DNA of 64,000 bases from Hymenolepis diminuta. Lineage: Eukaryota; Platyhelminthes; Cestoda; Cyclophyllidea; Hymenolepididae. The notes beneath the pieces are model-generated. The model saw only the letters and a program-made list of their open reading frames with translations, did not search any database and was not told the DNA's origin. Below, in pieces: positions 42,972 to 63,953 of this stretch. The position numbers were made by a program, and so were the translations under genes. The DNA lies in the NCBI GenBank assembly GCA_900708905.1, contig CAADRB010000025.1, positions 1,857,026-1,921,025 on the forward strand, written 5' to 3'. Numbering within the stretch: position 1 is the stretch's first letter; each line of letters begins with the position of its first letter.

Positions 42972-45240
42972 AGCGAGCGGGAGATTCCATCGATAAGCCC
43001 TTGTAGTGTTGCACACTCCCCAGATCGAAGAAATTTTCATTTCCTATATTTATCGACGCTATTGTAGGCAAAACAGAGTATTATCTTTTGGCTATTCGGT
43101 CATTAAAATACCTTAAAGCAATAGTTACATTATTTGCCTAGTTTCTTGGTTATAAGGTAAGCCGAACTACGCCAGGCATGAGCACTACAACATAAATCCA
43201 CATACGGTAGAAACATCGATGAATCATCTGAGGCTCACCGCAATTAATTCTGGCCAGCGCTAAACTCAGTCTGTTTATATGATTTATTTCATGCTGGTCC
43301 ATGAATGACTAATCTAATTTTGACTTCACAGTTCAAGAGACTACGGCAAATTACCATAATTAAATTGCTTTAATTATCTAGCGGGACTTAAGCGGCCAAT
43401 TTTGCTGCATTAAAATAATTTGGATCGAGGCCACTTAGAAGGATTAAGTCAAGTTACTCATGTCACTAGATCAGTACGGGAGTGGTGGGGAAACGAATCC
43501 AATTTATTCATAATCAAATTAAATTTATATGCAGAACATTTCTTCATTAGACTCCAGTCATGCCCCGTTGTGAATGTCCCCACGTGATGAGTGACATTTG
43601 TGTAGGTCTCTATGTATAAACACGTACACACATCGCTCGACAGGTCTTGGATACCGTGGTCGAGATCGTATCGTTTCTCCGATCATCAGTTATTGATTGA
43701 TATCTGCTGTCTATGGCATTTATCAAAATTAATTCAAATTAACAAATGACAGCCGGCATTTGTTGGTGTTAATCTACAGAGGGATAGTCGAAAGTAAATT
43801 TCTTAAAATATCCAGTATAACGGCGGAGATGGTATATCGAAAGAATGAAAACGTGGTGGTGGTAGTAGATGACCAACTATAAGAGCTAATATCGATCATA
43901 TTTAAAGCGTCGAAGTGTGAGTTTCTCTACTTCAAAGGCATTTTGACGTTACTTATTCTGCTTAAGATCAGTGATGGAAATGATGAAAAGCTAAAAACGG
44001 AAACTGACCACAAAAGAACTCTTTATACGAATTTGTCCCTCGAGCATTGAATTATCGGTTATTGAATTCCCGCTAGCAACTTTCCTCTTATTAAAGTCTG
44101 TAGAAACATTTTATTGCTAATTCTATTAATGGTAGCTTTGTACGATTTCTTTTTATTTAATCTGCTTGATCTGAGTAATTGTAGATGTAATTAGAACATT
44201 GAAGCACCCACCTAAAATCATTTAAGAAAATCATCCACTTTAACTATTCATAAATCGATCCATTCCCGCAAATGCATCTTCAGAACTCCGTCTTCCATAA
44301 CTACTCTGACAATCACCTCAGATCATTTGATTATCAAATATTTATGGATGGCTGACTATTCAGTTATTATTTCTCCTGCAAACAAAGTATTTTATCGATG
44401 AAGATGTCTGTCCACTTCTCCTGCAATGTATTTTTTCCTTCTCAAAACGCCCATTTGATTTGATATACCTTATGGAATAAAATGGATGTAAGTCATTATA
44501 TTGGTCAAGTTTTTGTATAATTTAATACTATCCCTTTACTTGAAGTCAATACACTTTACTTACTTGCCACCCAGAATGGGCTACCAGCTGCACACGTTTT
44601 ATACTTCTTGACTGGAGGATACGTCTTAGTGTTTGATTTTTTCTTGAACTCAACACATTGTTCTTAATTATTAATCAGTGTATCTGGCGTACAACAAACT
44701 TTCTACTCTATTTACCAGTTCTAAGTATATTCTCGGGAATAGTTGGTCCTCTTATTCAGTTTATTAATCATTAAATAAAATTTAATCTTGGTTAACTGCA
44801 GTCAAGCCGTTATTTTTTAATGGATCAACGTTAGTTGAAAAGACAACACATTGTTATTATTATAAGTAATTATTTAATTCCAATCTAAATCGTTTTATTA
44901 AAGAAGAGGACGCACACACGTCTTATTATCACTTTTATTAGTCTCAATGGGTGGATTTTGCCCTTTCGCCGTAAATCCAAATGAGAAAATGAGTAATCAC
45001 CATTTGCATCGCCGCTAATTAGGTCACGGATTATGTTTTGAAACGAGTAAACATTACTGCTGAAATTCAGGTCAAAATAAATGCGGCACATGTTAACTGA
45101 AGGACCTTTATAACCCAAATTTGAAATTCATTTATCGTTAATGCGATTTTCTCAAGTTCTCCATAAGAAAGAACTTCTTCAAACTAGTAATCAAAGATAA
45201 AGTTAAGTTGAGATAGGTTGAAATATTTTTTTTGGTTGAT
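42972..45240. other. Intergenic DNA up to the assembly gap
   Basis: No supported gene. The minus-strand ORF at 44885-45118 is short and has no domain. Confidence 0.4.
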
Positions 45241-45866
45241 NNNNNNNNNNNNNNNNNNNNNNNNNNNNNNNNNNNNNNNNNNNNNNNNNNNNNNNNNNNN
45301 NNNNNNNNNNNNNNNNNNNNNNNNNNNNNNNNNNNNNNNNNNNNNNNNNNNNNNNNNNNNNNNNNNNNNNNNNNNNNNNNNNNNNNNNNNNNNNNNNNNN
45401 NNNNNNNNNNNNNNNNNNNNNNNNNNNNNNNNNNNNNNNNNNNNNNNNNNNNNNNNNNNNNNNNNNNNNNNNNNNNNNNNNNNNNNNNNNNNNNNNNNNN
45501 NNNNNNNNNNNNNNNNNNNNNNNNNNNNNNNNNNNNNNNNNNNNNNNNNNNNNNNNNNNNNNNNNNNNNNNNNNNNNNNNNNNNNNNNNNNNNNNNNNNN
45601 NNNNNNNNNNNNNNNNNNNNNNNNNNNNNNNNNNNNNNNNNNNNNNNNNNNNNNNNNNNNNNNNNNNNNNNNNNNNNNNNNNNNNNNNNNNNNNNNNNNN
45701 NNNNNNNNNNNNNNNNNNNNNNNNNNNNNNNNNNNNNNNNNNNNNNNNNNNNNNNNNNNNNNNNNNNNNNNNNNNNNNNNNNNNNNNNNNNNNNNNNNNN
45801 NNNNNNNNNNNNNNNNNNNNNNNNNNNNNNNNNNNNNNNNNNNNNNNNNNNNNNNNNNNNNNNNNN
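45241..45866. other. Assembly gap (626 N)
   Basis: Unknown bases. ORFs that appear to run through it are artefacts of translating N. Confidence 0.99.
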
Positions 45867-48800
45867 ATTCAACACATTTTTTCATCCAAAAATTATCAAA
45901 ATTAAACTCGAACTTGTAGCGTATGATGAGTTACATACAAAAATAGAATGGAATTGTCCTGTCTAAATGATGTCTTAGTATCTTGTGAAATAACTACACC
46001 TGTAGTAACTAAATACAAAAATTAAAGGAGAGATTTGGTTAAGAATTTACCACATTCACAACCACGATGTCTAAAAATCTAAAACGAAAATTTTTTCTCG
46101 GGACAAAGGGGCTACAGTCATAACTCGGGCTCTAAGGGCAAGAGCTTCTGTTTCCCGCTATCTTCTAAAAGAAAATCTTAACTGGACGCCAATACTCCCT
46201 CTATTCAACATTCAATTTTAATTCTCCATTGAATGGGTTTAAAAGTGAATAGTCATCTTTCTTTCAAATTGACATCGTCATTGCCGTATTCATATAGATT
46301 TTTTATGTCATTTGAATTTATGTTTCTCACAAGATGATGTCACAAATTCCAGGCACTTGTATTTAGCCTAAGAGATCATGTTCTTTAATTCGCTACCTAC
46401 AAAATTTGTAACTTGTGAACTATATTTTCTTCATTTATCGCACAATCATCTAAAGCTATGCGTTGACAGATAAAAATTAACCCACAAATAACCCACAAAA
46501 TGAACTGGGAGCCCAACATGACTAAACTATCCATTCGTTAACATTCCTCATCAACATGCTTACTTCAGGGTAGTTTGATTTTCTCCATACATTGGTGAAG
46601 TCAGATACATTTTAATCAAACATAGGGACCTACTAGTTAATACGATTTTATTTGATAATTTAGCGGGTCACAAGTTGTCCAGCCAGAGATATTCACATGA
46701 TCAAGATATTCCCCGAAATGATTTTGCTTTGGGGATTATAAACATGTTTTGTTAAATATTCCGTTTAACCAAAAATATGTAATTCCTTTTTTCGGGACTT
46801 TATTTCACTACTTATATAAATTTCGGCTACAGCTTCAATTTACCAAGTCCCAATCTGTACGACTCTTCATTAATTTGGCGAATGCTATTTATAGTCTCTT
46901 CATTTGAAGATCAACCCACCGCTGGACAGATCAAAGTTTTATTTAAACCACTTGCCAGGATGTTAAGAACAGCTTGCTCGCGTACATTGCTAAGACTGAT
47001 GTGCGACGTAAAGATCGACTATGAGATGCGACTTTCTCATTCCGAGGCAAAGCCTCTACTCTTCAGCTTTGACCTATTTTTGGCTTACTAGTCCCTAAGT
47101 CTTCTTATTCGTCAGTCAAGTAAGGTCCGAATGAAATTAATGGAATGCTGCGAATTTCTGACTCAAATAGTGCCCTAGTTATTCTAAATATAGCTAAAGA
47201 TAAAAGTGAATCCACAAAATATGCAATCTTCAGTCAGAGTTTATGCGTACAGGGTTCATTCAGACACTTTACTGACCTATCGGTGGAAGAGAAGAATCAA
47301 AAGTCAAGTCAAGGTAAAACAAATATGCCAGTGGTAGAATGGCCGTGGTGACGACTATGGGAAATCTGTAAAACCGATGCAAAATAAGTGGTGAACAGAA
47401 ATAGGCTGCTTCAAATTCTAATCGCTAGATATACACTAGGGAGAACATTTTCCTAGCTGTATTGCATTCGCACAATCAAGTTGTATTAATCCTAAAGCTA
47501 GCGATGGTAGATCTGAGTCACCACTGTTAGTTCTGTAAATACACAAATTCCTGCCAGCAACGAAGTCTATATAACTTCTATCAGCATTTTAAACCGAGCA
47601 CTTTTATTCGCAATTTGGAACTTCTGTGTACTTTGCAGTTCCGTTATTGACTTTTATCCATACGAATAGAGCTGTTCGCTATTTCAAGGTCAAAGATGTT
47701 CAGTCAACAGAAGTGCACAACATTTTGAACAAATTATTCTGAACAATTTAAGCATTATGTGACAGTGATTTATTATTTATATTCTCATTCTTTATGATTT
47801 ATATTTCAGTGAGTGAATTTTGGCTTTAATAAGAAGGCTCCTGATTAGAAAATGGATAAGAGAATTGCATGGAGCTTCGGGCCCATTTCAATCGCTTGAT
47901 GCAGATTCCACTTAAAAGTGCTTACTGACGACACAGTGAATAAAATTTAACATCTAAAGAGTAAGGTTTGGCTAAGTCATCACTCTACAATGTTGTAATG
48001 ACCTTCATCACGGGCAAGATTATAGAAAGCATGATTGTGACTGGCGTTTGTTTCTACGAGATCAGTGGGAGATAAGTTTATTTAGTATGAACTTACTTAG
48101 GCAAAATTAGAATTCAACGGACATAGACCGACAGTTTTAGAGAAGTAAATCGGGGTCAGGGTGAGTTGTTTTGCCCTCACAAATTAGGTAAGGATGCACT
48201 TGAGTGGATAGTTTTTCTTATCGTAAGGGAATTACGATTCAAACTATAGGAGAATTCAAAATGTGAGTATTTGAAAAAGTAGCAGTAAAGTCATGTATTC
48301 ATTGATATAACATTAAGCAGCTGATATAATCAGGGCTGACGCTGATATATTACTAATAACGTGGCTACAGTCCCTGAAACCCAGATGTAGAAGTGGGAAA
48401 TTTCGTAACTCAAATGAGCAGAATATTTTAATAAAATACACGTGCTTATATAGAATGTGATAAGGAAATAACAGGATGGCTAACTAGCCAGTAATTGCAA
48501 TAATACCGAAAAGGCACATTTAGGTACTAGCACAGAAATCTGATGCGCCACTCATATCATTTGTGATAATTTCCCGATTTGATAAGATTTTCGTACCCTG
48601 TCTTACGTTTTGAGGGCAATTAAACCCGCGAAATTCGTTCAGGTGCACCAGAAAAAAATCAAATAGACTTCCTAACAATGATGAATTACGGAATTATTAT
48701 ATTAATAACTCCGCACAACTTTTACTCAGCAATTTGTCAACACAGGATGCGAAAATTTCGGTGAAAATAGTGTGAGAAGCGTTACGACGTAGCTATTAGT

Positions 48801-51800
48801 AAATCGATAGAGTATTCCCATACTTGATTAGCCTGAATCATCTCCATTTATCTTCCTGACAGTCTCATACGTGCCCGAGCATGATACCTCATTATGTATA
48901 TCTTGCTAATCTTATTATCCTCAATTCCAAACATCTGCACACAACATTTTTAGATGCACACTTTTGACTAAAATTAGGGTAGTTCTGTACTATTTAAGTT
49001 TTTTTATTGCTTCACATCTTGCGTAATTACTATTGTTAATCTGATGTCCATATTATATTTTAATTTCCACTGCGGAGCGTAGAAACATACATTACATCTA
49101 TCTAGCGTGAAGTAATAAATTGATAAGTCGCTTGACAATGTAATTCAAAGATGCGGAATAGAGATAATATTCCCCAGCTCATATCAAAAGAGAGCAACAT
49201 CAAACACTCCTCCTTGGCAGAATGATGATCCTATTGATACAAAATTGAGTCAACTATTTTTGGTGCTTCTGAACGAAGTTCACGGGCTTCAACTGCCGTT
49301 CACATGATTATCGATTATTTATGGCCCTTGTCTGGAAATGCAATCTCACTACAGTCGTAACTATTATTTAACCAAGTAGCCAATCAATTTTAAAACCAAA
49401 AGTTGCATATAAATAGTTGCCATTTGAATAACAAATAATCTTTCTTCTTTCAAACCGCCACTGGGGATAACAAACATAAATGACAAGGATCCTTATTAAT
49501 CAAGACAGCTCAATTTTGAAAAATCTCTAGGTTCACCTTGAATGAACTCCAGAGTGAACTTAAAATCCTTGCTAGTCCCATCCACCTACTCTTGGCTGTG
49601 GGACGATTCTGTTTAATCTCGGTTCAATTTGGAATACGATAAAAGCACAGAATAGGGCATAAATGATGTGTAGTAAACTTTGTGCTTAAAGATTTGAAAA
49701 CTATTACGCCGGTACCGCAACGATCGCTTGTGGTCCTCTCCCTCTCGTGAAATCCATGGTTGTCTTTTTAATTCACCGCTGTTTGAGCTACTGATCTTCT
49801 CCATCGACAGGCGTCTAGCGATATTGTGGTGATTATAGAACTCATTACATAACGTCAAATTAGCGGTGGCAAAATTCCAGTTTTCAAATCGAAAATGTTT
49901 TGATCTATTTCAGAATTCTTGCCTATTCTATTACTGGTTAACCGAAACTATAACGTTAAACAAAATATCCCAAACCAATCCAATTTATCCCAATCGGGTT
50001 GGGATATCCCAATTAAAGTAGAAAGAAAAAAGATATCAAGTTTAGGTATAACGCCAAGTTCTTAATGAATGCCGAAGTGGCATCTCAATAGAAGAATAGA
50101 GCGCGACTAAACAAAGAGAGCCGAAGATGTGCTGTTTTCACTAACAATAATAATAGTGGTAAGGGGGATAGAGAATGGGGAAATGGGTTGACACAAAGAT
50201 AGGGGAAGATTAAGAGAAAGTGCAAGATTACGTGGTAGTTAGTAGTTTAATTAGTAGTAGTATTACCATAGCGATAGGGAGAAGTAAAGTTCCACACACA
50301 CACACACACTTATCAATAAGTCTATCAACCAGGACGCGAGCCAAGCGATACTAATGAAAGACAGCCATAATAAAGATGTACGTATTAGAGTATGGAAATC
50401 ACAACAAAACAGCACACAGAAACCATCCCCTTGGAAAAAATTTCTTGGTTCCTCATAGATAAGGGCGACAAAACTTGAGCGCGTGAAAACCCGTTCCTCA
50501 ATCGATCGACTGATTGATTGATTTAATGTCAAAATGAGGCGGGAAGGGAGACAATTATGTGTGTTTAAAAATGCATGAGACAAATAGAGCTTAATGAAAA
50601 GGGAAGAAAGGAAAGGACATTAAGAGATTGTGGTTCGATACGACTAAACATTGATTTTATAGGGTTCGCGAGATCAACAATCCTCACAAGCGACTGGAGA
50701 ATTCTAAAAAAGAGGAAACCAACAAATCAATTTATTTGTGAGGAATAAAATTAACCCAGCTAGGCTAGTTAGGGAGTTAGATCAAGAGACAAATCTAAGA
50801 TAACAATTGGCCAACCTTATTCAAGTCGGTATTGTCGTCTACAAAATAATCAAACTAACAATATATCAATTTTTGTACAAATTCCAAGATTAGCAAATAA
50901 TTTATCAACACAGCTATCTACTCTATAGTAATCAAATCAGCTCTCCAAAAATCATGAATTATCTGTATTCTTCCATCCCCGTTATATCCTTTACGTAGTT
51001 CTGGGCCCAAGTTTTGTCCTACCCTCGCATGTAAGGGAGAGTTCCTCCATCTCCCATTACTAATGAGCTGCCTCTTAAAGTTAAGTAAAGTACCTCAAAA
51101 ATACTTTCTGTACTAACCTAAATAAGGCGCCTTCAATTACTCCCCCCCTGGGATGAGAGCTTTGGACATCCCATAATTCATGGGGATATTACGGACATTC
51201 CAGTTAGAAGCAAGAAGCACTAACCGTCTGCTGTAGCAGTAATTTAGTGATACTGTGATCACCAACTTAGTCAGATAACAAGGGCTCTAAATTCAAATAA
51301 TACAAGTCTGGTTAGGGCCCACTGGATCTAAGTTGAAGTTAAATCGTACCCTCTGAAAGCTTATCCAGCTGGCTCATACCAACTAAAAACTCTGTAACTA
51401 AAAAAGTAGTCACAGACATCAACACCGACCAGACCGATTTCATTTAGAGATCTACTTCCATTATCAAACGAATAAGAATTGGTTTGTAGTTGGATAAAAG
51501 AGATATATTAAATTCAACTCTCCGTTCTTTAAAACCGATAATTCGTGCAGTTGTCGTCCAATTGCCTTAAAGGGTAAGATTCAAACCAGTAACACAATAC
51601 TATTAAATATCTCAAGCCATTAAGATTATTAAAAAAGGGACATCAATCGCAACCTAAGAGATATAAAAATATTCGCATTTCACTTCACCTCATCTCATTA
51701 CCTTCTGTTTTGAAAGTTACACATCTTCACGTTCAACAAGTACCCTCTAGCGAAATTTTTGAACAAATAAACGCAAAAAACATTGGTAACTGCTAACAAA

Positions 51801-52502: not shown

Positions 52503-55500
52503 TCACTTACTTGCAGGAGCCCAAATATGAATATCTCCCTCATCATTAACCGATGCAATCATGTGGGGATGAGTCGGGTTCCAATGAACACCGGTGACAG
52601 GAATTTCGTTACTGGACGCAGACATCATTGAGTGAATTGGTCGACAATTACGTGTCGTTCCAACACGCCAAATATGCACCATACCATCTAGACAAAGGAG
52701 GGAGTTATTTCAAAAGATTGAATCAAACCCACTTTCACTTCCACAGCAAATAAAGTCCTCGTTGGCTCCACAGAAAGAGTAACAGAGTTTCTGAGAAACC
52801 TGCTGATGTCCACAGAATCGTTGAATAATGCCTTGGGCTTCCAAATCCCACAAAACTAGGCCCTGAAAAAAAAACCAATCAAGTATTACGTATAATCAAG
52901 TATTAAACAGTCTCGAAACCAACCTTTCCGTTGAGCGCAACAAGCAGACGTTTGCATGAGGGCGAAAGGACAATGGATTGGATGGGATAGATCTCTTTGA
53001 TCAAGGTCACTTGTTGAATTAAAGAGTAACCTTGACCTTGGGTCGCAGGACTTGGAGGACCACCCGGGGGTGTCTGGGTAGTACCAACATTAGATACCTC
53101 GGTGTTAGTAGAAACTTCAGCAGTATCAGAGTCGGCACCGCCTGTACCACCTTCGCCAAGTCCTGTCATCATTGAGGACCTAAAAGTGGATGAATATGTT
53201 CTGGTTATTATGATACAACTTATTCAATTTTAGCAACTAGCTTCAACTGTAAAATAGGAACAAGTAACATCTTCATGAATCATTCGATTTCAGCACCCAC
53301 AGTCATTTGAAGTGAAAATCAACAATAGCAAACTATCAACAGAAATAGTCCATAAAATAAGAAGCGGATAAATTCCTGATGGATACAACGTTACTTATTG
53401 CGGATCAACAAATTTTAGCAAAGCCAAACTAGAGACACGAAATAGTACTCCTACGTGGTATCCATTGGTTCCTGTTCAGTGCTAGATAACAAAAGGGTTT
53501 TCTATAGTTTCATTATTGAATATTCAAGAATGAAAATCAATTTAAACACTAGAGCCGATAGCGAATGAGGAAAAATAACTTTTTCCAATGAATGAGTTAA
53601 AACACCGTTTGATTCGTTCGCATAGCAGCGATTTCCCCCTTATGAGATGAGCAAATAGAAATTATAAGCTACTGCTCATAGCACACAGAGAACACTTAAG
53701 TGGTATACATCGTTGGAGTAGGGTGAAGATTTTGGCCATTTTCATATTGTTGAAGACTATATTAAACAGATAAAGTTGTCTCCGATCATTACTGATTAAA
53801 ACAGAAGAAAAAATTTGGTAACTTTGAGTGTTGGCAATAATACAACAGGAGTACTAAAAGAACCAAGCAACGTTAACGGATATCTTATTAACCGAGTCAT
53901 ACATATAGCTGTCGGCCATGGGAAACAGCAGAACCAATATATTTAAGTATTAACTGAAACCAGAAGAGAAAATCCTACTATTTACCCGAGCATTCGAATG
54001 GGCTGTAACAGAAGACTATAATGCAGAAGGGACAGTGTGAGATATTATTCAGAGATACAAGAGTCGAAAATAGCAGTATAGAATACCTTAGTAAATCACT
54101 GCTCAAATAAAAAATTCAGTTTAGATTGCCATATAGATTAACAGCAGAAGGGAAAATTCTCTTATTTACCTGGGAAACTGAGGCGATTGTGGCTCTAGAC
54201 TATAAGGTGAGTGGGATACTTAGATACCACTTAGATACTTAGAGGTATCGAAAACACAAACAGAATAGCGTTTAATACTTATTTGAATGGTTGTTGAATA
54301 GAAAAAGAATTAGGCTTTAATTACTATATCACCATATAATTTAAAATCAGAAGAGAAATAAAACTTATTATTCACTCATGAGTATGAGTATTTTGTTGCT
54401 GTTGACTACAACAAAAAATCAAGATTAAAATCTATTCACAAATAAAAGTATAAAGAAGTACAATGACCGATTATTTACCCAGAATTTTGAGGAGTTTGAA
54501 CCTGATAGCTATGACGTAAATAAGGGGGTTAGATACTATTCACAAAAATTCTAAAATAGCTACATAGTAATGCGAAAATACCGAAACGGCCTAAAGAATG
54601 ATGAGGGGATATATGGAATGCTGCAAAGCAAAGTCGAAAATTGATTAATTTGATAATTAGATCAACTGATTTAACGCAAAATAGAAACTTATTTATAGAT
54701 CCATCATCTTGATAATTTGTAGACAAAGAGCGAACACACATCAAAAAGAAGGACATAGTTACATGTAATACCTGGATGGTTGATTTCTGCATTAAAATGT
54801 AAAATATAAAATGGGAAATTATTTGTCACCGTGGTGAAACAATTTCGTTTAATTACCCAGTATCTGGAGCGGTTTGAGGTCCCTGGCTATGATGAAAAGG
54901 AGTTAAACGCGGCTAAAAAACGTGTAAGTATCAATTAGAGCAGCATAGCTATATTTGAAATACCCAGATTGAACATTTGTCATAGGAACTTGTCTAGATA
55001 CATAGTTATAACTTTGTGAGAAGGAAAGTACTTAGATTTCGAGATTATAGCACTTTAAATCCAAATTTTGCAAAAGGTACTACAAACTCGTATACACGTA
55101 TCAAGTAAAGCAATATAGCTAAATGAAATACCGAACTGCTTGACTGCTGTAAACATTTAAATCGTCATGGTCTCGTCACCAGAAATGATAATTATCGGGC
55201 AATATTACTATTTCTTTACCCAGCATTCGGATTAATATGAAGCCTTTGGTTATGGAATAAAAGGGCTAGATATTACTAACAAATCTAAGTATCGAGTAGA
55301 ACAACATAGCCAACTAACATACCCAGTGGATTGACTTTTGTAATTAAAATTTTTACTATCACATATCATCTTAATGATCGAAAATTTGGGAAACACTGTA
55401 ATCCACTTACCCAATAATTAGAGCACCATGACTATAGTAAAAAGGAATTAAACACTACTATTACTACTCAAAAAGGAAAACACATGGCATCTACTAGACA

Positions 55501-58500
55501 CAAGATATTGCTAAAATACACAAGTAGAACAATATAGCAATACCTGTTTAGAGATGATGTAGGTATTCGATAAAAAGCACTAAGACACAAAGGGGGATAT
55601 TATATGCTGCCAACCAATTAGGCAGGAACAAGGCAATATTATTATTATTATTATATGGAAAAAGGAGGCGAGGACTACGTACACGTGTTCATTAATAACT
55701 TATTGATAATTATTAGGAAGGATTTATAATTAGAGGGAAAAAACTTACCCTGAAGAAAGAGCAGCTGGGAGGTTCGGATAAGACGCAAGCACACTACAAG
55801 CCCACATATATTAGATGAATAAGAATGGTGGAGAGGAAGGGGGGAGAAAGGATACAATCGATATTTTAAGTATTCAACATACGATCGATATAACGACACT
55901 GGACGAAATTGTGGCATAACCCAACTACACCACCAAAAATCAACAAATTAAAAGGAAATAATCATAGCTCAGAACCAAAACATGTAAAAGATACCTACCG
56001 TGAGAAGGAGGGACTTGATATAGAAAATAGGTATCGCATTACTATTGTCTTAAATTAAATTTTAGAGACACCGAGAGAAAAGGACATAAATACCTCATTC
56101 TAGGATCAAATTGCAGACAAGGGCCTTGGAAAGTGGACCTAAAGAGAGGGTTTGCAAATACCAGTAGAATAACCCTTACATTCACACAAATTAGAGCTGA
56201 GGAATAAAGCAAATTGTTACCTCGGAAATCGAAACCCGGTGTTACTTCCCGAAGCAAGCAATTGAGGGCTATAAAACCACAATACCGATAAAATTAAACC
56301 TCGAACCCATTAAGTGGAGATGCTGACGACATTTGACTTAATCTAGAGCCACCTAATGAGAAGCCCGCGTTCTGAAATTGACCAGTGCGGTTGGCCATCC
56401 ATATCACTGGATGTAGTACAGATGATTATCGATCTCATAACGTCGGACTCTACAGACGTGCATTTTTAGAGTGTAAGAGTGAAGAAACATGCTCTCCAAC
56501 TCCGATGGCGTAGTGACGGAAGTGCTCACCAGAGAAGTCAGAAGTCACGGGTTCTACATTTATGCAAACTCAGTAAGTGGAATGGCCAACTCCACTGGTT
56601 AGGTATGGCAAATAAGGAGGACGACAGAATTCGAATTTCTAGCGAGAGAAGTAGTCCAATTAGTCCATCTGTGATCTTTGACTCGAAAAACATAAACTTT
56701 GACCGCTACGCCGTTGATTAGTACTGATCATGTATTACCAGGTTAGTCAACAAAACTAATAGTTATTATAAACACTTACGCGAGAGGAGCACCAGCTCGT
56801 ATTGAGCTAGTTCCAGGAACACCGGCACTTGAGCTGGCCCGAGGTCCAGCAGTGGAAGAGGGCATACCTGCATAACGCATGTAGTATTGATGCATTAGAA
56901 CGGGTAGGGAAGACACGAGGGTTGGGAAAGTGGAGAGCGATTCAAGACTATAGCCAGGGGCACCAATTTGAGCAGCCATAAGGTTAGGAACACTACCTGG
57001 AACATTGCTACCGCTCTGTATCAAGGGATGGGGAGTAAAACCCGGGTTCGGTTGGATCTGCACCAGCACCTGTCCAGGAAGACCTATTAAAGACACAAAG
57101 GAAGTAGATTAAATAACAGATTTTACCACTAATTATGCACCCTTTGATATGTAAATACCTAATCTACCAATTGCTCATCAATCTTGCAACTATGCTCCCT
57201 TCAGTTTAATCTCTACGAGGCTTTGTGCTCTCTGTCTACTTCCTATCTATTTTTTATAGAAAGTTAGGAGAGATAACTTAGCAAGTTAGCGACTTCTATA
57301 CTGCAACTACTTTTCAATATGTGGTACTCCTGTAACTATATTCCAGCACCGATGAAAACATAAGAGATTCGGATAATGCTCAAAGTCAATCATCAAGGTG
57401 ACAAATTATTGCTTCCTTTGCCATCTTATCGTTTTAATTCTGACTGAATGCATTTTCCTTCTACCCCCATTGACTTAGACAAAAACGAGCCACTGCCCTA
57501 GACTTTATCTCCCATTGCGGTGTGATCTTCCCCTATTTAGGTTTGGTATTGCTCAATAGCCGCTCGTCTCGCTCAAGCGTTCATTAACAAGAGCTCAGAC
57601 AGGCCCCAAACAAGCCCACAGCATACCAACAAGAGAGCCAGAGGTACTAGCGGAAGCAGCAGGAATAGCAGCGGGCGTCTGAAGCCTAGACGACCCAAAC
57701 CCAACCCCCATGCCAAAACTAGAGTCCGAAGTGGACTGATGAATCGGCGGTGGGGGTAGACCACCACTTCCGGCCCTCAGCTGAGCCCTGTGGTGTTGTT
57801 GTTGATGGGGAAAGAGAGCAGTTTGGAGAGCCATAATGATGGGAGTTACACCTCCTGTCCCTCCCTGGCTGGCAGCAGCAGTAGCAGTAGTCCACATACC
57901 GGTTGTCATAGCGGCCGCGGATGTTGCATCAGCCGCTATCTGTTCCATTCCTGTTACATTAGTGGCAGCGGCGCCTGCGTCGCCACTGTTTGCAGCGGGA
58001 AGAGTGTAGCCAAAGCGGAAGAGGCGAACACGATACATGTGATCGACAATAAGCAGCTGATCCAGGGTATGAACAAGTCCTGGATGATCGAAACTGGGAG
58101 TGCTGGTACTGGTGTTACTGTTTGCAGTTGTTGGACCCCTACTAGCGCTAGGATCCATGTCCATTGGGGTGGGAATGGGAAAACCGAAGCTGGAAGGAGG
58201 GGGAACGATTGCAACCATGCATTGAACACGACAGTGATCGTGACTAAACAGCACTCGACCATCGTCTTCAGTATCCTAAAAGTGATAGAAACATTTGGTA
58301 AGCAAAGTGATTTGAACCGAGGGTAAAATAAGCATCCAAAAGCCTTAAAAAAGTGAGAGTTGCTATCTCAATTTGACGTATATCTCAGCTTCTACCAATA
58401 AAAATGTCAGGATGAAGATATAATTATTAAACATTTTCCCTTGACAGATGTTTCCTTGCCTAAACCATAGGCGGAATATCTAGTTTTATAAGTCAATAAA

Positions 58501-61500: not shown

Positions 61501-63953
61501 GAAGTATTATGATTATAAAACACTTATTCAGTGAGCCATGCCGATCACTAATGACCTCTCATTATAATATACGTATGTGATTGAAGAGTAACCCCTCATA
61601 ACGACCTCCAGATTTTTAAATATTCAAGAAAGTGTCATCGGCCGACACTGAGTTTGATACCGATAATAACGCTGGGTCATTACAGAAGTATACCGTCAAA
61701 AATTATCAAAATTCAGGACCATAGGTTCTATAGTGACGTTTAGGAGAGGTTTAACATGCTGTAGACGAATACCTAGTCGAGGGAGTTCTTTGATGGACGT
61801 CTGGATAGAAAGATTATGATTCCATTTCTGGTGTAGTGAGGGTTTCTGGAAAATGTTTAGCACACTAAAACTGGTCATAAACTAGATGGAAGGATACCCA
61901 TAAATATGAAAGAATGGGTCATATTAATTAAATTTAAAGGGTCAACGGGAGAAGGCGAAAATCACATTTGTTCAAATCCTCACAAAAATGATTTCGAAAC
62001 CCAATCTACAGACACTAGGTGTCTCTAAGTCAAACACGAAGATGGTGCAAATGATAAACAGGTGTTGAGGTAGAAAGAAAGTGAAAACAGCAACTTGAAA
62101 ATGTCGTAAAAGATCAATTATATTTGTGGATTCTCGGTGTTATCGACTCATTAAAGATGGAAGTGGGATGAGAAGCAGTTGGTGGATTGATCACCACGAA
62201 CAAAAAGATGATCTAAGAGTTGGTGGACTCTGTCGTCCAGCATAGGAGTGCAACAAAAAAAACTATGAAAAAGGAATGGATGAGAAATTACGTGAGATCA
62301 TGTCATCTGCAATTTTCATATGAAGAAGAGAATGGCAAAAGAGTAAGTCACCCTAAGCCTTAAATTGATAAAGCAGATGACCTGACTATTTTTCTGATCA
62401 GATAAAGTAAAGCTGTCCTAATTCCCTTGATCTCACAACTACTGCCTCAAGTTCCATATGGAATTAAATTAAACTTCTTTACCGTTTCATTACAATTAAG
62501 TTATGAAACTTTTAGAGTGAAATAAATAAATAATTAAATTGATTTGTTTTTTATCATCTGCAAATCTCAGCTAAAATTACTTACTGATCCGCAGTTATGC
62601 AGATTGACGTTACTGTCCAGTTTAACAAATTTGCACGCCGTTAAACATACTAGAAACGTTTTCAGTGTAATTGTCCACTGAACAATCCTCAAAATAAGGC
62701 TCAATAAAATTTGGTGGACTGGATTATAGGAATAAAACGGTGCCAATTAACATTTCCTCTTAAGGAAACCCTTCATCTTGAACTTCAAAATTCTCCAATT
62801 TTACACTACTTTCTATAACATCTTTGACATAATCTTTTGCTGACAATTTCTATCAGTAGAAGAACGGCAGGAAGTAATTCCTCTAACAAAGTTGAAGTAA
62901 CAATTACTAAGGCCTTATTTATCTGGTAAGATCAATAAAGGGGGGATGGGAGTTGAATGGAATCGAAAACATCTGGATACTAAATTGAATTAGAACAGTG
63001 ACTGCAAATTGCATCAGCAATCATTCCAATCACAAGAGATGCATCATCGGGTCTCACACCTATGATTTCTACTATGGCAGATGATGAACTGCCATTAAGA
63101 AATAAGTGCCATAATAAAGCCAAAAAACTGTAAATAAAGTGGAATTCTAATTAACCTGAATGTGCAGACATAATCATCTAAAACTGGGATAAACAAAAAT
63201 AACAATAAATCGCGCTTACAATAATGTAGAAACAGCCACCCTTTAGGCCACCAAAAGCTAGTTTTCGGTTGTCTCCAAAGAATGTTGCCGTGATGTAGAC
63301 ATCGTCAGCTTTTTCATGCTTTTGGCAGATTTTGCGTCTAGTGGCGACATCGAAGACAACAATCGGACCAGGGCGAGAGCCACAGCATACTGCAATTCTA
63401 TGGAGGCAGTGAAGAGAAGGAAATTAGGTGTTAGGCAACGCTGATGCATACGCGAAGTGTGCCAGATACACAGGCGCGCAAACAGCACACCTATACTACC
63501 ACATCGATAGGCAATATGTGTACTGCCTCATTTCTTACTGCTTATCTACCTTAAGCTCATAAAATACTATTAACAGACATGTTGAGACCTACTCAATCAC
63601 CGGGATATGAGCACCACTCACTGTATATTCGCACTTAAGTAAATAATGTACCAAATAACTCACTTCATTCCTAAATCAAGCTAGAATTGCGCTAAATGAA
63701 ACCCCACCCTTACTCGATAACCGGGACTTACTTTTTCGAATCAGGAGACCAGCAAATATGGTTTATAGACGCTTCAACTGAGAGGGTACGACTGTGGGAA
63801 ATGGTATTCCTCTCCTTATCAACCTTGAAAAGATCCACATTACTTTCCTTTCCACCGATGGCTAGGTAGTTTCCATCAGGTGAAAAGACAGAAAAGTACA
63901 ACTCAGTGTCACGATGTTCGATCTTTTGAACTGGAAAGACGGGGAAGTCCATT
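52503..63953 (-). CDS. WDR26/Gid7-like WD40 protein, incomplete at the 5' end
   Basis: Main exons, 5' to 3': 63732-63953, 63220-63397, 57627-58275, 56780-57083, 52924-53179, 52733-52862, 52511-52687; all join in phase. Blades in order: SVFSPDGNYLAIGGKESNVD, INHICWSPDSKKIAVCCGSR, FFGDNRKLAFGGLKGGCFYI, a block HCRVQCMVAI...LLIVDHMYRVRLF, then SPSCKRLLVALNGKGLVLWD, GANEDFICCGSENGMVHIW and VHWNPTHPHMIASVNDEGDI ending HIWAPA. The order and spacing follow vertebrate WDR26 from the second blade to the terminal GSE...VYIW and IW-x-P blades. WDR26/Gid7 is a subunit of the CTLH/GID E3 ubiquitin ligase; LisH and CTLH domains should lie beyond 64000. About 280 extra residues, rich in Ala, Ser, Gly, Thr and Pro, interrupt one blade. 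The family call is from remembered motif order, not a search. Confidence 0.78.
52511..52687 (-). CDS. WDR26-like exon (last blade)
   Basis: Acceptor TGTCTAG; intron before it is only 45 bp. Encodes GMVHIWRVGTTRNCRPIHSM, then VTGVHWNPTHPHMIASVNDE, then GDIHIWAPA. The end is ambiguous: GCA A|GTAAGT is a perfect donor, but without splicing the frame stops after two more codons (TGA at 52503-52505). A possible last exon after TTAAGCAG near 52450 would add only about nine residues, so the protein ends here either way. Confidence 0.85.
52733..52862 (-). CDS. WDR26-like exon (penultimate blade)
   Basis: Acceptor TTTTTTTTCAG, donor A|GTGGGT. Encodes GLVLWDLEAQGIIQRFCGHQ, then SQKLCYSFCGANEDFICCGS, matching GVHLWDLQD and GGHNEDFIASGSE of WDR26. 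Intron upstream is 61 bp. Confidence 0.9.
52924..53179 (-). CDS. WDR26-like exon (end of insert and next blade)
   Basis: Acceptor CACTTTTAG, donor AAG|GTTGGT, phase 2 in and 0 out. Begins with a Gly/Thr/Pro-rich end of the insert (GLGEGGTGGADSD, TQTPPGGPPSPATQGQG) and returns to the propeller with LIKEIYPIQSIVLSPSCKRL, LVALNGK, aligned with the WDR26 strand SFTISKNGRLAL. Confidence 0.88.
53986..54015 (-). CDS. Candidate micro-exon, 30 nt (A-type)
   Basis: Acceptor TCTGCATTATAG, donor CGG|GTAAAT. Core residues LLLQPIRML. Last member before exon 52924-53179; joining gives an intact glycine codon. Confidence 0.58.
54087..54098 (-). CDS. Candidate micro-exon, 12 nt (B-type)
   Basis: Strong acceptor TTTTTTATTTGAGCAG, donor AAG|GTATTC. 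Core residues DLL. Confidence 0.48.
54170..54199 (-). CDS. Candidate micro-exon, 30 nt (A-type)
   Basis: Acceptor CTCACCTTATAG, donor CAG|GTAAAT. Core residues LEPQSPQFP. Confidence 0.6.
54376..54405 (-). CDS. Candidate micro-exon, 30 nt (A-type)
   Basis: Strong acceptor TTTTTTGTTGTAG, donor A|GTGAAT. Core residues QQQQNTHTH. Confidence 0.58.
   Translation of the reverse strand, partial: STATKYSYS
54479..54508 (-). CDS. Candidate micro-exon, 30 nt (A-type)
   Basis: Acceptor TTTACGTCATAG, donor TGG|GTAAAT. Core residues YQVQTPQNS, aligning with QGPQTAPDT of the exon at 54857. Confidence 0.6.
54582..54590 (-). CDS. Candidate micro-exon, 9 nt (B-type)
   Basis: Acceptor ATCATTCTTTAG, donor TCG|GTATTT. 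Core residues PF. Very short; splice sites are good but the exon is the least certain by length. Confidence 0.4.
54772..54786 (-). CDS. Candidate micro-exon, 15 nt (B-type)
   Basis: Acceptor TTTTAATGCAG, donor CAG|GTATTA. Core residues NQPS. Confidence 0.5.
54857..54886 (-). CDS. Candidate micro-exon, 30 nt (A-type)
   Basis: Acceptor CTTTTCATCATAG, donor TGG|GTAATT. Core residues QGPQTAPDT. Confidence 0.6.
55132..55143 (-). CDS. Candidate micro-exon, 12 nt (B-type)
   Basis: Acceptor TTTACAGCAG, donor TCG|GTATTT. Core residues QAV. Confidence 0.45.
55220..55243 (-). CDS. Candidate micro-exon, 24 nt (A-type)
   Basis: The usual A-type acceptor TATAG has become ATAA here, but an AG six bases inside (ACCAAAG) keeps phase. 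Donor TGG|GTAAAG. Core residues LHINPNA. Confidence 0.45.
55323..55334 (-). CDS. Candidate micro-exon, 12 nt (B-type)
   Basis: Acceptor AATTACAAAAG, donor TGG|GTATGT. Core residues QST. Confidence 0.4.
55411..55431 (-). CDS. Candidate micro-exon, 21 nt (A-type)
   Basis: Acceptor CTTTTTACTATAG, donor TGG|GTAAGT. Core residues HGALII. A-type member nine bases shorter than the 30-nt norm. Confidence 0.55.
55544..55579 (-). CDS. Candidate micro-exon, 36 nt
   Basis: Strong acceptor CCCCTTTGTGTCTTAG, donor CAG|GTATTG. Core residues AFYRIPTSSLN. Confidence 0.6.
55749..55793 (-). CDS. Candidate micro-exon, 45 nt
   Basis: Acceptor GGGCTTGTAG, donor AGG|GTAAGT. Core residues VLASYPNLPAALSS, coding-like in composition. 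Confidence 0.6.
55999..56013 (-). CDS. Candidate micro-exon, 15 nt
   Basis: Acceptor CTATATCAAG (modest), donor ACG|GTAGGT. Core residues PSFS. Confidence 0.4.
56094..56138 (-). CDS. Candidate micro-exon, 45 nt
   Basis: Strong acceptor CCCTCTCTTTAG, donor GAG|GTATTT. Core residues STFQGPCLQFDPRM. Confidence 0.6.
56221..56268 (-). CDS. Candidate micro-exon, 48 nt
   Basis: Acceptor GGTTTTATAG, donor GAG|GTAACA. Open in phase 2-2; core residues PQLLASGSNTGFRFP, similar in style to the neighbouring insert exon. Confidence 0.6.
56479..56721 (+). mobile_element. Possible LINE 3' fragment in intron
   Basis: A plus-strand open segment includes LSKWNGQLHWLGMANKEDDR, loosely like the W-x-GH-x-x-R tail that ends LINE ORFs. 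Too short and diverged to be sure. Confidence 0.25.
56780..57083 (-). CDS. WDR26-like exon, insert continued
   Basis: 304 nt, acceptor TTAATAG, donor GC|GTAAGT. Encodes a Pro/Gly/Ser-rich segment: PGQVLVQIQPNPGFTPHPLI, then QIGAPGYSLESLSTFPTLVS, LMHQYYMRYAGMPSSTAGPR and RAGAPLA. No known domain. It ends in phase 2, which fixes the phase of everything spliced after it. Confidence 0.82.
57627..58275 (-). CDS. WDR26-like exon with low-complexity insert
   Basis: 649 nt, acceptor CTTTTAG, donor G|GTATGC, phase 0 in and 1 out. Starts DTEDDGRVLFSHDHCRVQCM (matching the WDR26 RVQCLW blade), then a Pro/Ser/Thr stretch, the blade strand LDQLLIVDHMYRVRLFRFGY, and about 130 residues rich in Ala, Thr, Ser, Gly and Met, including a HQQQHHRAQ run and GGLPPPPIH. 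The ORF continues a little past the donor into intron. The insert is expected to be a disordered loop. Antisense ORFs over this exon are shadows. Confidence 0.85.
58276..63219. other. 4.9-kb intron of WDR26-like gene with LINE remnant
   Basis: Bounded by a GTAAGC donor and a CACTTTTAG acceptor on the minus strand. The WD40 text joins directly across it. It carries a plus-strand reverse-transcriptase remnant at about 59.59-60.16 kb; no other feature seen. Confidence 0.7.
59590..60160 (+). mobile_element. Non-LTR retrotransposon (LINE) remnant
   Basis: An open plus-strand segment at 59600-59908 carries the thumb-region hallmark of LINE reverse transcriptases: YLGSQINANGPATEAVTRN, then AEQKLVRLRLILKYPRLSVK. 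In intact elements a catalytic FADD core precedes this and a RLRWLGHVLR-type tail follows; the core is absent, so it is 5'-truncated. The 3' part at 59934-60050 has a diverged copy at 32336-32450. It lies antisense in the WDR26-like intron. Confidence 0.75.
63220..63397 (-). CDS. WDR26-like exon (middle WD40 blades)
   Basis: Acceptor CCATAG, donor GTAAGC, phase 2 in and 0 out. Encodes IAVCCGSRPGPIVVFDVATR, then HEKADDVYITATFFGDNRKL, then AFGGLKGGCFYII, aligning with the WDR26 stretch that ends GGQRGQFY. Confidence 0.87.
63732..63953 (-). CDS. WDR26-like exon (early WD40 blades)
   Basis: Acceptor TTTTAG at 63954-63955 immediately before AATGG, donor AA|GTAAGT. Encodes DFPVFPVQKIEHRDTELYFS, then a WD blade with FKVDKERNT. 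The ATG at 63950-63952 lies right behind an acceptor and in the middle of the propeller, so it is not the start codon. Confidence 0.85.

Follow-up and report, generated by a model that had tools for sequence, protein, structure and literature searches.

A single intron of the tapeworm Hymenolepis diminuta, 3,600 nt long and located in the orthologue of the ubiquitin-ligase subunit WDR26/Gid7, contains an array of candidate micro-exons that is in phase with both neighbouring exons. The gene runs along the minus strand of a 64,000-nt stretch of contig CAADRB010000025.1 (assembly GCA_900708905.1, positions 1,857,026 to 1,921,025), referred to here as the window. The array is real as sequence organisation—it exceeds shuffled and genomic controls, its middle part is a tandem repeat, and at least three of its members occur in a public gene model, P0059, while a second model, P0001, contains none. 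We read the intron as about 20 genuine micro-exons, grown in tandem and either skipped or included in frame, that lengthen one loop of WDR26; we put the probability of this reading at roughly 0.8, on account of the decoder tests described below and P0059.

The host gene is a WDR26 orthologue. Eleven joined exons on the minus strand give an uninterrupted frame of 879 aa, whose product is 99% identical to the H. diminuta database protein P0001. It matches human WDR26 (PDB 8qbn) with an E-value of 6.3e-81 in phmmer over both the LisH-CTLH part and the propeller, and it shows the order expected of a WDR26/Gid7 orthologue: a LisH-CTLH-CRA part followed by a WD40 propeller aligned to WDR26. The Pfam model for the WDR26 LisH, PF23627, matches under its own cut-off (20 vs 27 bits). 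The phmmer match falls into two blocks (tapeworm residues 28-394 and 738-877 against 116-477 and 495-628 of 8qbn), between which lie 343 residues in the tapeworm protein and 17 in the human PDB chain (478-494); part of the 343-residue stretch, around HTLDQLLIVDHMYRVRLFRFG, is by reading still propeller. The array intron falls within the low-complexity part of this propeller insert. The claim of a first-pass annotation—an in-phase micro-exon array in a WDR26 homologue, inside a propeller insert—holds. That annotation also placed the two flanking exons correctly and gave the right intron phase, with 2 nt of a codon before the intron and 1 nt after it:

56780 to 57083, minus strand: 5' flanking WDR26 exon, 304 nt, ending 2 nt into a codon (exon joining; in P0001)
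53180 to 56779, minus strand: array-holding phase-2 intron, 3,600 nt (phases of the flanking exons)
52924 to 53179, minus strand: 3' flanking WDR26 exon, 256 nt, of which 1 nt finishes the codon (in P0001 and P0059)

Within this intron we list 21 candidate micro-exons of 12-48 nt, 624 nt in total and coding for up to 208 residues. The list was built from reading, repeat homology, spacing and automatic decoding; a length divisible by three and an open frame in phase 2 were listing conditions for all 21. At lax thresholds, 62 of the 270 AG...GT pairs of 9-66 nt in the intron are divisible by three and open in the required phase. None of the 21 candidates ends in TA or TG, which makes a stop codon at a junction impossible for any subset. 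Neighbouring candidates are mostly 70-89 nt apart (13 of 20 gaps), the other gaps being 112, 138, 151, 169, 176, 227 and 229 nt. The first-pass annotation had proposed seventeen segments of 9-48 nt and an insert of 0 to 148 residues; many in-phase symmetric AG/GT segments were indeed recovered, the exact set of seventeen was not reproduced, and the array is probably larger than was thought. In transcript order, the candidates are:

56221 to 56268, minus strand: E1, 48 nt, PQLLASGSNTGFRFP; predicted, also by automatic decoding
56094 to 56138, minus strand: E2, 45 nt, STFQGPCLQFDPRM; predicted, also by automatic decoding
55999 to 56013, minus strand: unnamed candidate, 15 nt, PSFS; predicted, also by automatic decoding
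55883 to 55924, minus strand: E3, 42 nt, WVMPQFRPVSLYR; predicted, absent from the combined-score chain
55749 to 55793, minus strand: E4, 45 nt, VLASYPNLPAALSS; predicted, also by automatic decoding
55544 to 55579, minus strand: B1, 36 nt, AFYRIPTSSLN; candidate, absent from the combined-score chain
55411 to 55431, minus strand: A1, 21 nt, HGALII; predicted, also by automatic decoding
55323 to 55334, minus strand: B2, 12 nt, QST, weak acceptor; candidate from repeat homology and spacing
55220 to 55243, minus strand: A2, 24 nt, LHINPNA, weak acceptor; candidate from repeat homology and spacing
55132 to 55146, minus strand: B3, 15 nt, SQAV; candidate from repeat homology alone
54964 to 54993, minus strand: B4, 30 nt, QVPMTNVQS, weak sites; candidate from repeat homology alone
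54857 to 54886, minus strand: A4, 30 nt, QGPQTAPDT; predicted, also by automatic decoding
54772 to 54786, minus strand: B5, 15 nt, NQPS; candidate from repeat homology alone
54582 to 54620, minus strand: C5, 39 nt, IPYIPSSFFRPF; candidate, for which automatic decoding favours a 9-nt version at 54582-54590
54479 to 54508, minus strand: A5, 30 nt, YQVQTPQNS; predicted, also by automatic decoding
54376 to 54405, minus strand: B6, 30 nt, QQQQNTHTH; predicted, also by automatic decoding
54170 to 54199, minus strand: A6, 30 nt, LEPQSPQFP; predicted, also by automatic decoding
54087 to 54098, minus strand: B7, 12 nt, DLL; predicted, also by automatic decoding
53986 to 54015, minus strand: A7, 30 nt, LLLQPIRML(G); predicted and annotated, its last codons being the start of P0059
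53709 to 53756, minus strand: A8, 48 nt, LQQYENGQNLHPTPT; chosen by eye, absent from the combined-score chain, annotated in P0059
53455 to 53481, minus strand: Z, 27 nt, TEQEPMDT; predicted and annotated in P0059

Several segments were considered and left out: a 16-nt, out-of-frame B8; a weak candidate at 55615-55674; 53606-53638, which is absent from P0059, where A8 joins Z; and a 54-nt candidate at 56353-56406, chosen by the automatic decoding and dropped because it overlaps a dispersed repeat.

The most direct support comes from the database. P0059, an H. diminuta protein of 221 aa, reads MLG-LQQYENGQNLHPTPT-I-TEQEPMDT-T-SSMMTGLGEGG..., and its first 212 residues are the exact spliced product of A7 (from an internal methionine), A8, Z, the exon at 52924-53179 and the next two exons. 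A7 and Z had been picked by the automatic scan and decoder and A8 by eye, all prior to the comparison with P0059. The protein was found with an array peptide as query at an E-value of 1.5; we count the match because the identity to the spliced product is exact. The terminal exon of P0059 is small and lies 1.8 kb further downstream (50684-50703); since such an exon would be difficult to predict without transcripts, we infer that the model rests on RNA. The annotation from which it probably stems consisted of two runs: the first had est2genome switched on and drew on Trinity transcripts and on STAR-mapped RNA-seq from three adult worms, and the second was protein-based with est2genome off; either run may underlie P0059 (PMC6890685). 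In P0001, the 5' flanking exon is joined directly to 52924-53179, and therefore the form that skips all micro-exons is annotated as well. The idea that subsets can be skipped thus stands as far as one model with three micro-exons and one with none; free combination of subsets would go beyond these two models.

P0059 also invites another explanation, in which a separate transcript starts within the intron—from an internal promoter, or as a nested micro-exon gene fused to the 3' exons of WDR26—and yields a short protein. The protein is indeed only 221 aa long and annotated from a methionine inside A7; a model built on a partial transcript would likewise begin at the first methionine, there being no other in-frame methionine between B4 and A7. 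The phase of the array matches that of the host intron, for which the chance is one in three, and the candidates reach to 511 nt from the 5' flanking exon. Further, no signal-peptide exon was noticed by reading, and no search for promoters or 5' ends was made. We regard an internal start as quite improbable.

In the middle of the array, at about 53700-55600, a unit of two exons is repeated in tandem, in up to eight copies. The unit starts with a B exon (12-36 nt), followed by an intron that begins gtatt and contains a common ctatgttgttctacttgatac-like stretch; next come an A exon, mostly of 30 nt (range 21-48), and a second intron, often beginning gtaaat. The shared motif lies after the B donors and before the A exons. 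Aligned to itself, the array reaches summed bits of 274 against a maximum of 134 in 100 shuffles; the best single match, at 33.7 bits, is reached by one of the 100. Both the self-alignment sum and the shared motif mark the array as a tandem exon duplication, with exons and flanking introns duplicated together. In their flanks, the unit copies share only 40-52% identity.

Near the 5' end of the intron, at intron positions ~120-406 (window 56374-56660; matches at ~120-278 and 314-406), lies a copy of the dispersed repeat mentioned above, which is found in at least 39 other genomic places at 70-95% identity (40 of 76 candidates scored). The only other match reported for the intron is 28 nt long (E 0.08), in the same intron and on the opposite strand. 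We rejected a transposon origin of the array, as only the ~120-406 segment matches the dispersed repeat and the rest has no reported match elsewhere in the genome, in a search that leaves aside simple repeats and words of very high frequency. Rfam gave zero matches in the window at gathering thresholds.

The first-pass annotation had asked how often such symmetric, phase-compatible exons would arise in a shuffled intron, and the answer favours the array. We chained AG...GT pairs of 9-60 nt, at least 30 nt apart, using a generic metazoan consensus as splice matrix and thresholds of -2/-2, chosen after seven threshold pairs had been inspected. In the array intron this chained 16 exons in the required phase 2, compared with 9 (phase 0) and 10 (phase 1) in the wrong ones; dinucleotide shuffles gave 5.3 +/- 2.2, and none of 400 reached 16. 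Controls were taken from the window, part of the neighbouring sequence L009 and 27 other loci, on both strands and in three phases: the 414 window-phase combinations, 3,000 nt in length, held at most 10 chained exons (mean 3.5), compared with 13, 14 and 14 when three stretches of the array intron of that length were scanned. When introns were restricted to 60-95 nt, the run had 16 members in phase 2 and 5 in either wrong phase, and none in 200 shuffles exceeded 8. Of two stricter threshold settings, one left a spaced run of 7 (3 in the wrong phases, no more than 4 in shuffles) and the other a run of 4 (2 in the wrong phases, no more than 3 in shuffles). Nine of the 16 members of the 60-95 nt run are in the list of 21, and 54763-54771 and its other members were not adopted. 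This spacing and the 62-92 nt spacing bonus of the decoder were both fixed after the gaps had been inspected.

A combined decoder adds splice, codon and spacing scores, the codon score being trained on the rest of the WDR26 gene; such training is free of the non-coding and N-spanning frames that are included when codon scores are trained on long open reading frames (ORFs). In phase 2 the intron scores 65.2 with 14 exons, 12 of them exactly as in our list. The wrong phases score 21.2 and 19.2, lengths not divisible by three at most 20.5, 150 shuffles at most 15.9, and the best control row without array overlap 27.3 (426 rows in all). The three other WDR26 introns of more than 300 nt show no array signal, with one low-scoring candidate each in the required phase (2.1 for the one of 4,944 nt, -4.9 and -6.0 for the others; at most 3.6 in any phase). 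Within the array, sub-regions 55600-56300 and 54016-55600 score 19.7 and 24.4, against shuffle maxima of 12.7 and 15.4 (n=300 each). The 20 candidates listed at that stage have a GC content of 0.447, compared with 0.319 for the remaining intron, and none of 2000 random placements reached 0.447; the codon score of the candidates is +25 bits in frame and -5 and -8 out of frame; and stops number 0 in frame and 8 and 6 in the other frames. The absence of stops and part of the GC and codon differences are built in, because the candidates were picked as stop-free in the phase-2 frame.

A number of observations weigh against our reading. The direct join in P0001 skips every micro-exon; besides P0059, no database protein with array peptides was found; and the WDR26 proteins of Anoplocephala, Echinococcus and Mesocestoides lack an insert at the array position. 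With a 1078-aa form as query, P0001 alone was returned over the array region. The database proteins are representatives of 90%-identity clusters, from which isoforms inside a cluster could escape. Within the array, a clear A exon is missing from unit 3, and unit 8 has an out-of-frame B exon of 16 nt; splice sites are weak at B2, A2, B4 and A8; and seven of the 20 gaps are longer than the usual spacing. Likeness among the A exons (0.50) does not exceed that of the sequence following the B exons (0.52), and mismatches among A4-A7 are flat across codon positions (32, 28 and 30 of 54 each), so that there is no synonymous-site signature of purifying selection. Finally, the proportion of lengths divisible by three lacks significance when considered on its own (0.434 vs 0.345; 60 of 400 shuffles reach it), and with a noisy gene-specific splice matrix—11 donors and 10 acceptors of WDR26, one of the 11 donors misplaced (GTGATG for GTAAGT)—the plain count barely separates from the shuffle maximum (16 vs 15; 23 vs 24). 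The combined score under the same matrix still separates (33.6 vs 19.7 and 39.3 vs 20.8). Together with the flat codon positions and the unexceptional likeness of the A exons, these two results limit what can be said on selection and on the weaker exons B2, A2, B3, B4, B5 and C5.

The last two adverse points are what an explanation by chance, in which AG...GT pairs were merely selected by eye, can draw on. The combined automatic tests and the agreement of three listed exons with P0059 speak so strongly the other way that we give this explanation almost no weight; for A7, A8 and Z, chance is ruled out if P0059 rests on RNA. A relic has a better claim: A7, A8 and Z would be real cassettes, and the other copies of a mostly decaying or unused array would be rarely or no longer spliced in. 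That the database model contains just three of the exons is in keeping with this, as are the defects of units 3 and 8, the weak splice sites and the flat codon-position divergence of A4-A7. However, the phase-2 score of 54016-56779, which excludes the annotated exons, is still 52.3; the two wrong phases reach 13.9 and 15.6 there, and the best of 300 shuffles 14.8. Such a phase preference would not be expected after long decay at 40-52% copy identity. We therefore consider a relic unlikely, and the remaining 18 candidates are probably real exons for the most part.

Under our preferred reading of genuine, in-frame micro-exons, the middle of the array would have grown via repeated tandem duplication of the two-exon unit. 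By default, the whole array would be removed as a single 3.6-kb intron, giving the P0001 form, and some transcripts would include one or more micro-exons, at least A7-A8-Z as in P0059; the other 18 candidates may be used as well, and inclusion may be graded or combinatorial. Since all lengths are multiples of three and no junction can create a stop, any included set would lengthen the same low-complexity propeller loop, by up to ~208 residues, leaving the propeller and the LisH-CTLH part intact. The combined share of P, Q, S, N, T and G is 0.56 in the array peptides, 0.54 in the constant insert and 0.31 in the propeller; because the array peptides match the constant insert, inclusion should extend the loop with the fold undisturbed, and the lengthened loop is probably disordered. 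In human WDR26, NMNAT1 is recruited by the propeller, whose central pore and blade loops provide the contacts with YPEL5 (PMC7616709), and a loop of variable length at the propeller could gate or add contacts for partners and substrates of the CTLH ligase. That some 20 micro-exons are used in stage- or tissue-specific sets, producing CTLH ligase isoforms whose disordered loop, beside the substrate-binding propeller, varies in length and motifs and thereby tunes what gets degraded, is a further step that we hold to be rather doubtful.

Variation of this insert may be older than the array. In two flukes, WDR26 models from a single species are distinguished by a block in this insert, in the manner of exon skipping (Schistosoma intercalatum P0006/P0007; Opisthorchis felineus P0011/P0014), and these differences suggest that splicing-based length variation predates the tapeworm array. 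The Rodentolepis nana model P0003 stops about ten residues past the homologous 5' flanking exon, the remaining gene being missing from the model; it is uninformative on the array because of an apparent read-through, judged by reading, into the unspliced intron.

The other exons of the gene are as follows:

64034 to 64897 in window numbering, beyond the window (in L009), minus strand: first four WDR26 exons (exon joining)
63732 to 63953 and 63220 to 63397, minus strand: upstream WDR26 exons (exon joining)
57627 to 58275, minus strand: WDR26 exon, 649 nt, first part of the low-complexity insert (exon joining, comparison with P0001)
52733 to 52862, minus strand: WDR26 propeller exon, 130 nt (exon joining)
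52503 to 52687, minus strand: last propeller exon, with an unspliced end ...IWAPASK* (P0001) or a donor GTAAGT at 52510 (fits P0059; by reading)
50684 to 50703, minus strand: coding part of the terminal exon fitting P0059 (...K-FSSRL*), with FSSRL at 50687-50701 and the remainder by reading

Two C-termini are thus annotated for WDR26: ...IWAPASK* in P0001 and ...IWAPAKFSSRL* in P0059, the latter spliced to the terminal exon 1.8 kb downstream. With P0059 as query, no second genomic copy of the C-terminal part was found (two matches, both at this locus). An alternative donor 15 nt downstream of 57627 (to 57612) adds MLWAC and fits P0001; Anoplocephala P0002 carries a short insert of another sequence at this junction (57612-57627), which points to another in-frame splice variant. 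The short introns of the gene itself measure 36, 38, 45, 61, 74 and 80 nt; tapeworm intron lengths peak at about 36 and 73 nt. Elsewhere, an assembly gap of 626 N at 45241-45866 accounts for a low GC reading at 44001-46000 and for false long ORFs. About 5.7 kb from the start of WDR26 and divergent from it, a plus-strand frame of 353 aa (L009 8621-9682) reads like an exosome (RNase PH-like) subunit.

The closest known parallels are the micro-exon genes (MEGs) of Schistosoma mansoni, in which many exons of 6-81 nt, mostly multiples of three, can be skipped without loss of frame (PMC10526429; PMC7653826). The H. diminuta candidates share this symmetry, all 21 lengths being divisible by three (by listing condition); they, too, could be skipped without shifting the frame, and skipping itself is represented only by the two annotation models. 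The likeness that the first-pass annotation drew to variable secreted proteins found no support: the products of S. mansoni MEGs are secreted and carry an N-terminal signal peptide, and the introns of these genes measure from 100 to almost 5000 bp (PMC10526429), whereas the tapeworm host is the orthologue of a conserved intracellular E3-ligase subunit, with an N-terminus (MSIPSSQTAEVPSSVRAGTVADEV...) that has no hydrophobic stretch and no apparent signal peptide, as judged by reading and not by a signal-peptide program. Moreover, 13 of the 20 candidate gaps are 70-89 nt, and the whole array sits within a single intron between ordinary exons.

In other tapeworms, 52 micro-exon genes have been counted in Hymenolepis microstoma and 35 in Echinococcus multilocularis (PMC7653826). 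The rule used for H. microstoma requires at least seven exons, of which at least half are under 70 nt and divisible by three, with a run of four (PMC7653826); the WDR26 gene would fall under it if all 21 candidates were used (21 of 33 exons), and on the annotated exons alone, with three micro-exons in a run of three, it would not. WDR26 is unmentioned among these genes in the text of PMC7653826 to the extent drawn on here, its supplementary gene list aside; the parts used of PMC4398949 and PMC5440512 contain nothing on such arrays, and we found no report of a WDR26 micro-exon array at title and abstract level in the open-access literature, coverage of which is incomplete, supplements aside. 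Gene finders and read aligners struggle with small exons (PMC7653826), and similar modules may for that reason hide in other tapeworm introns.

The best-described flatworm micro-exon genes encode secreted proteins. A similarly large array confined to one intron of a conserved ubiquitin-ligase subunit would mean that an ordinary gene can acquire such a device as a module, whose possible mode of growth is illustrated by the tandem units. If our reading is true, the worm could vary the length of one floppy WDR26 loop through splicing, and the role of low-complexity propeller inserts in flatworm WDR26 becomes a testable question. Human WDR26 and yeast Gid7, of the CTLH/GID E3 ligase, are orthologous proteins with the same domain order, the human protein having 17 residues in place of the 343-residue insert. 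Tandem exon duplications are known to widen the splicing repertoire (PMC9013439); in contrast to the known cases, the WDR26 unit is a symmetric pair of micro-exons, several copies of which might enter one transcript together instead of a single copy being selected.

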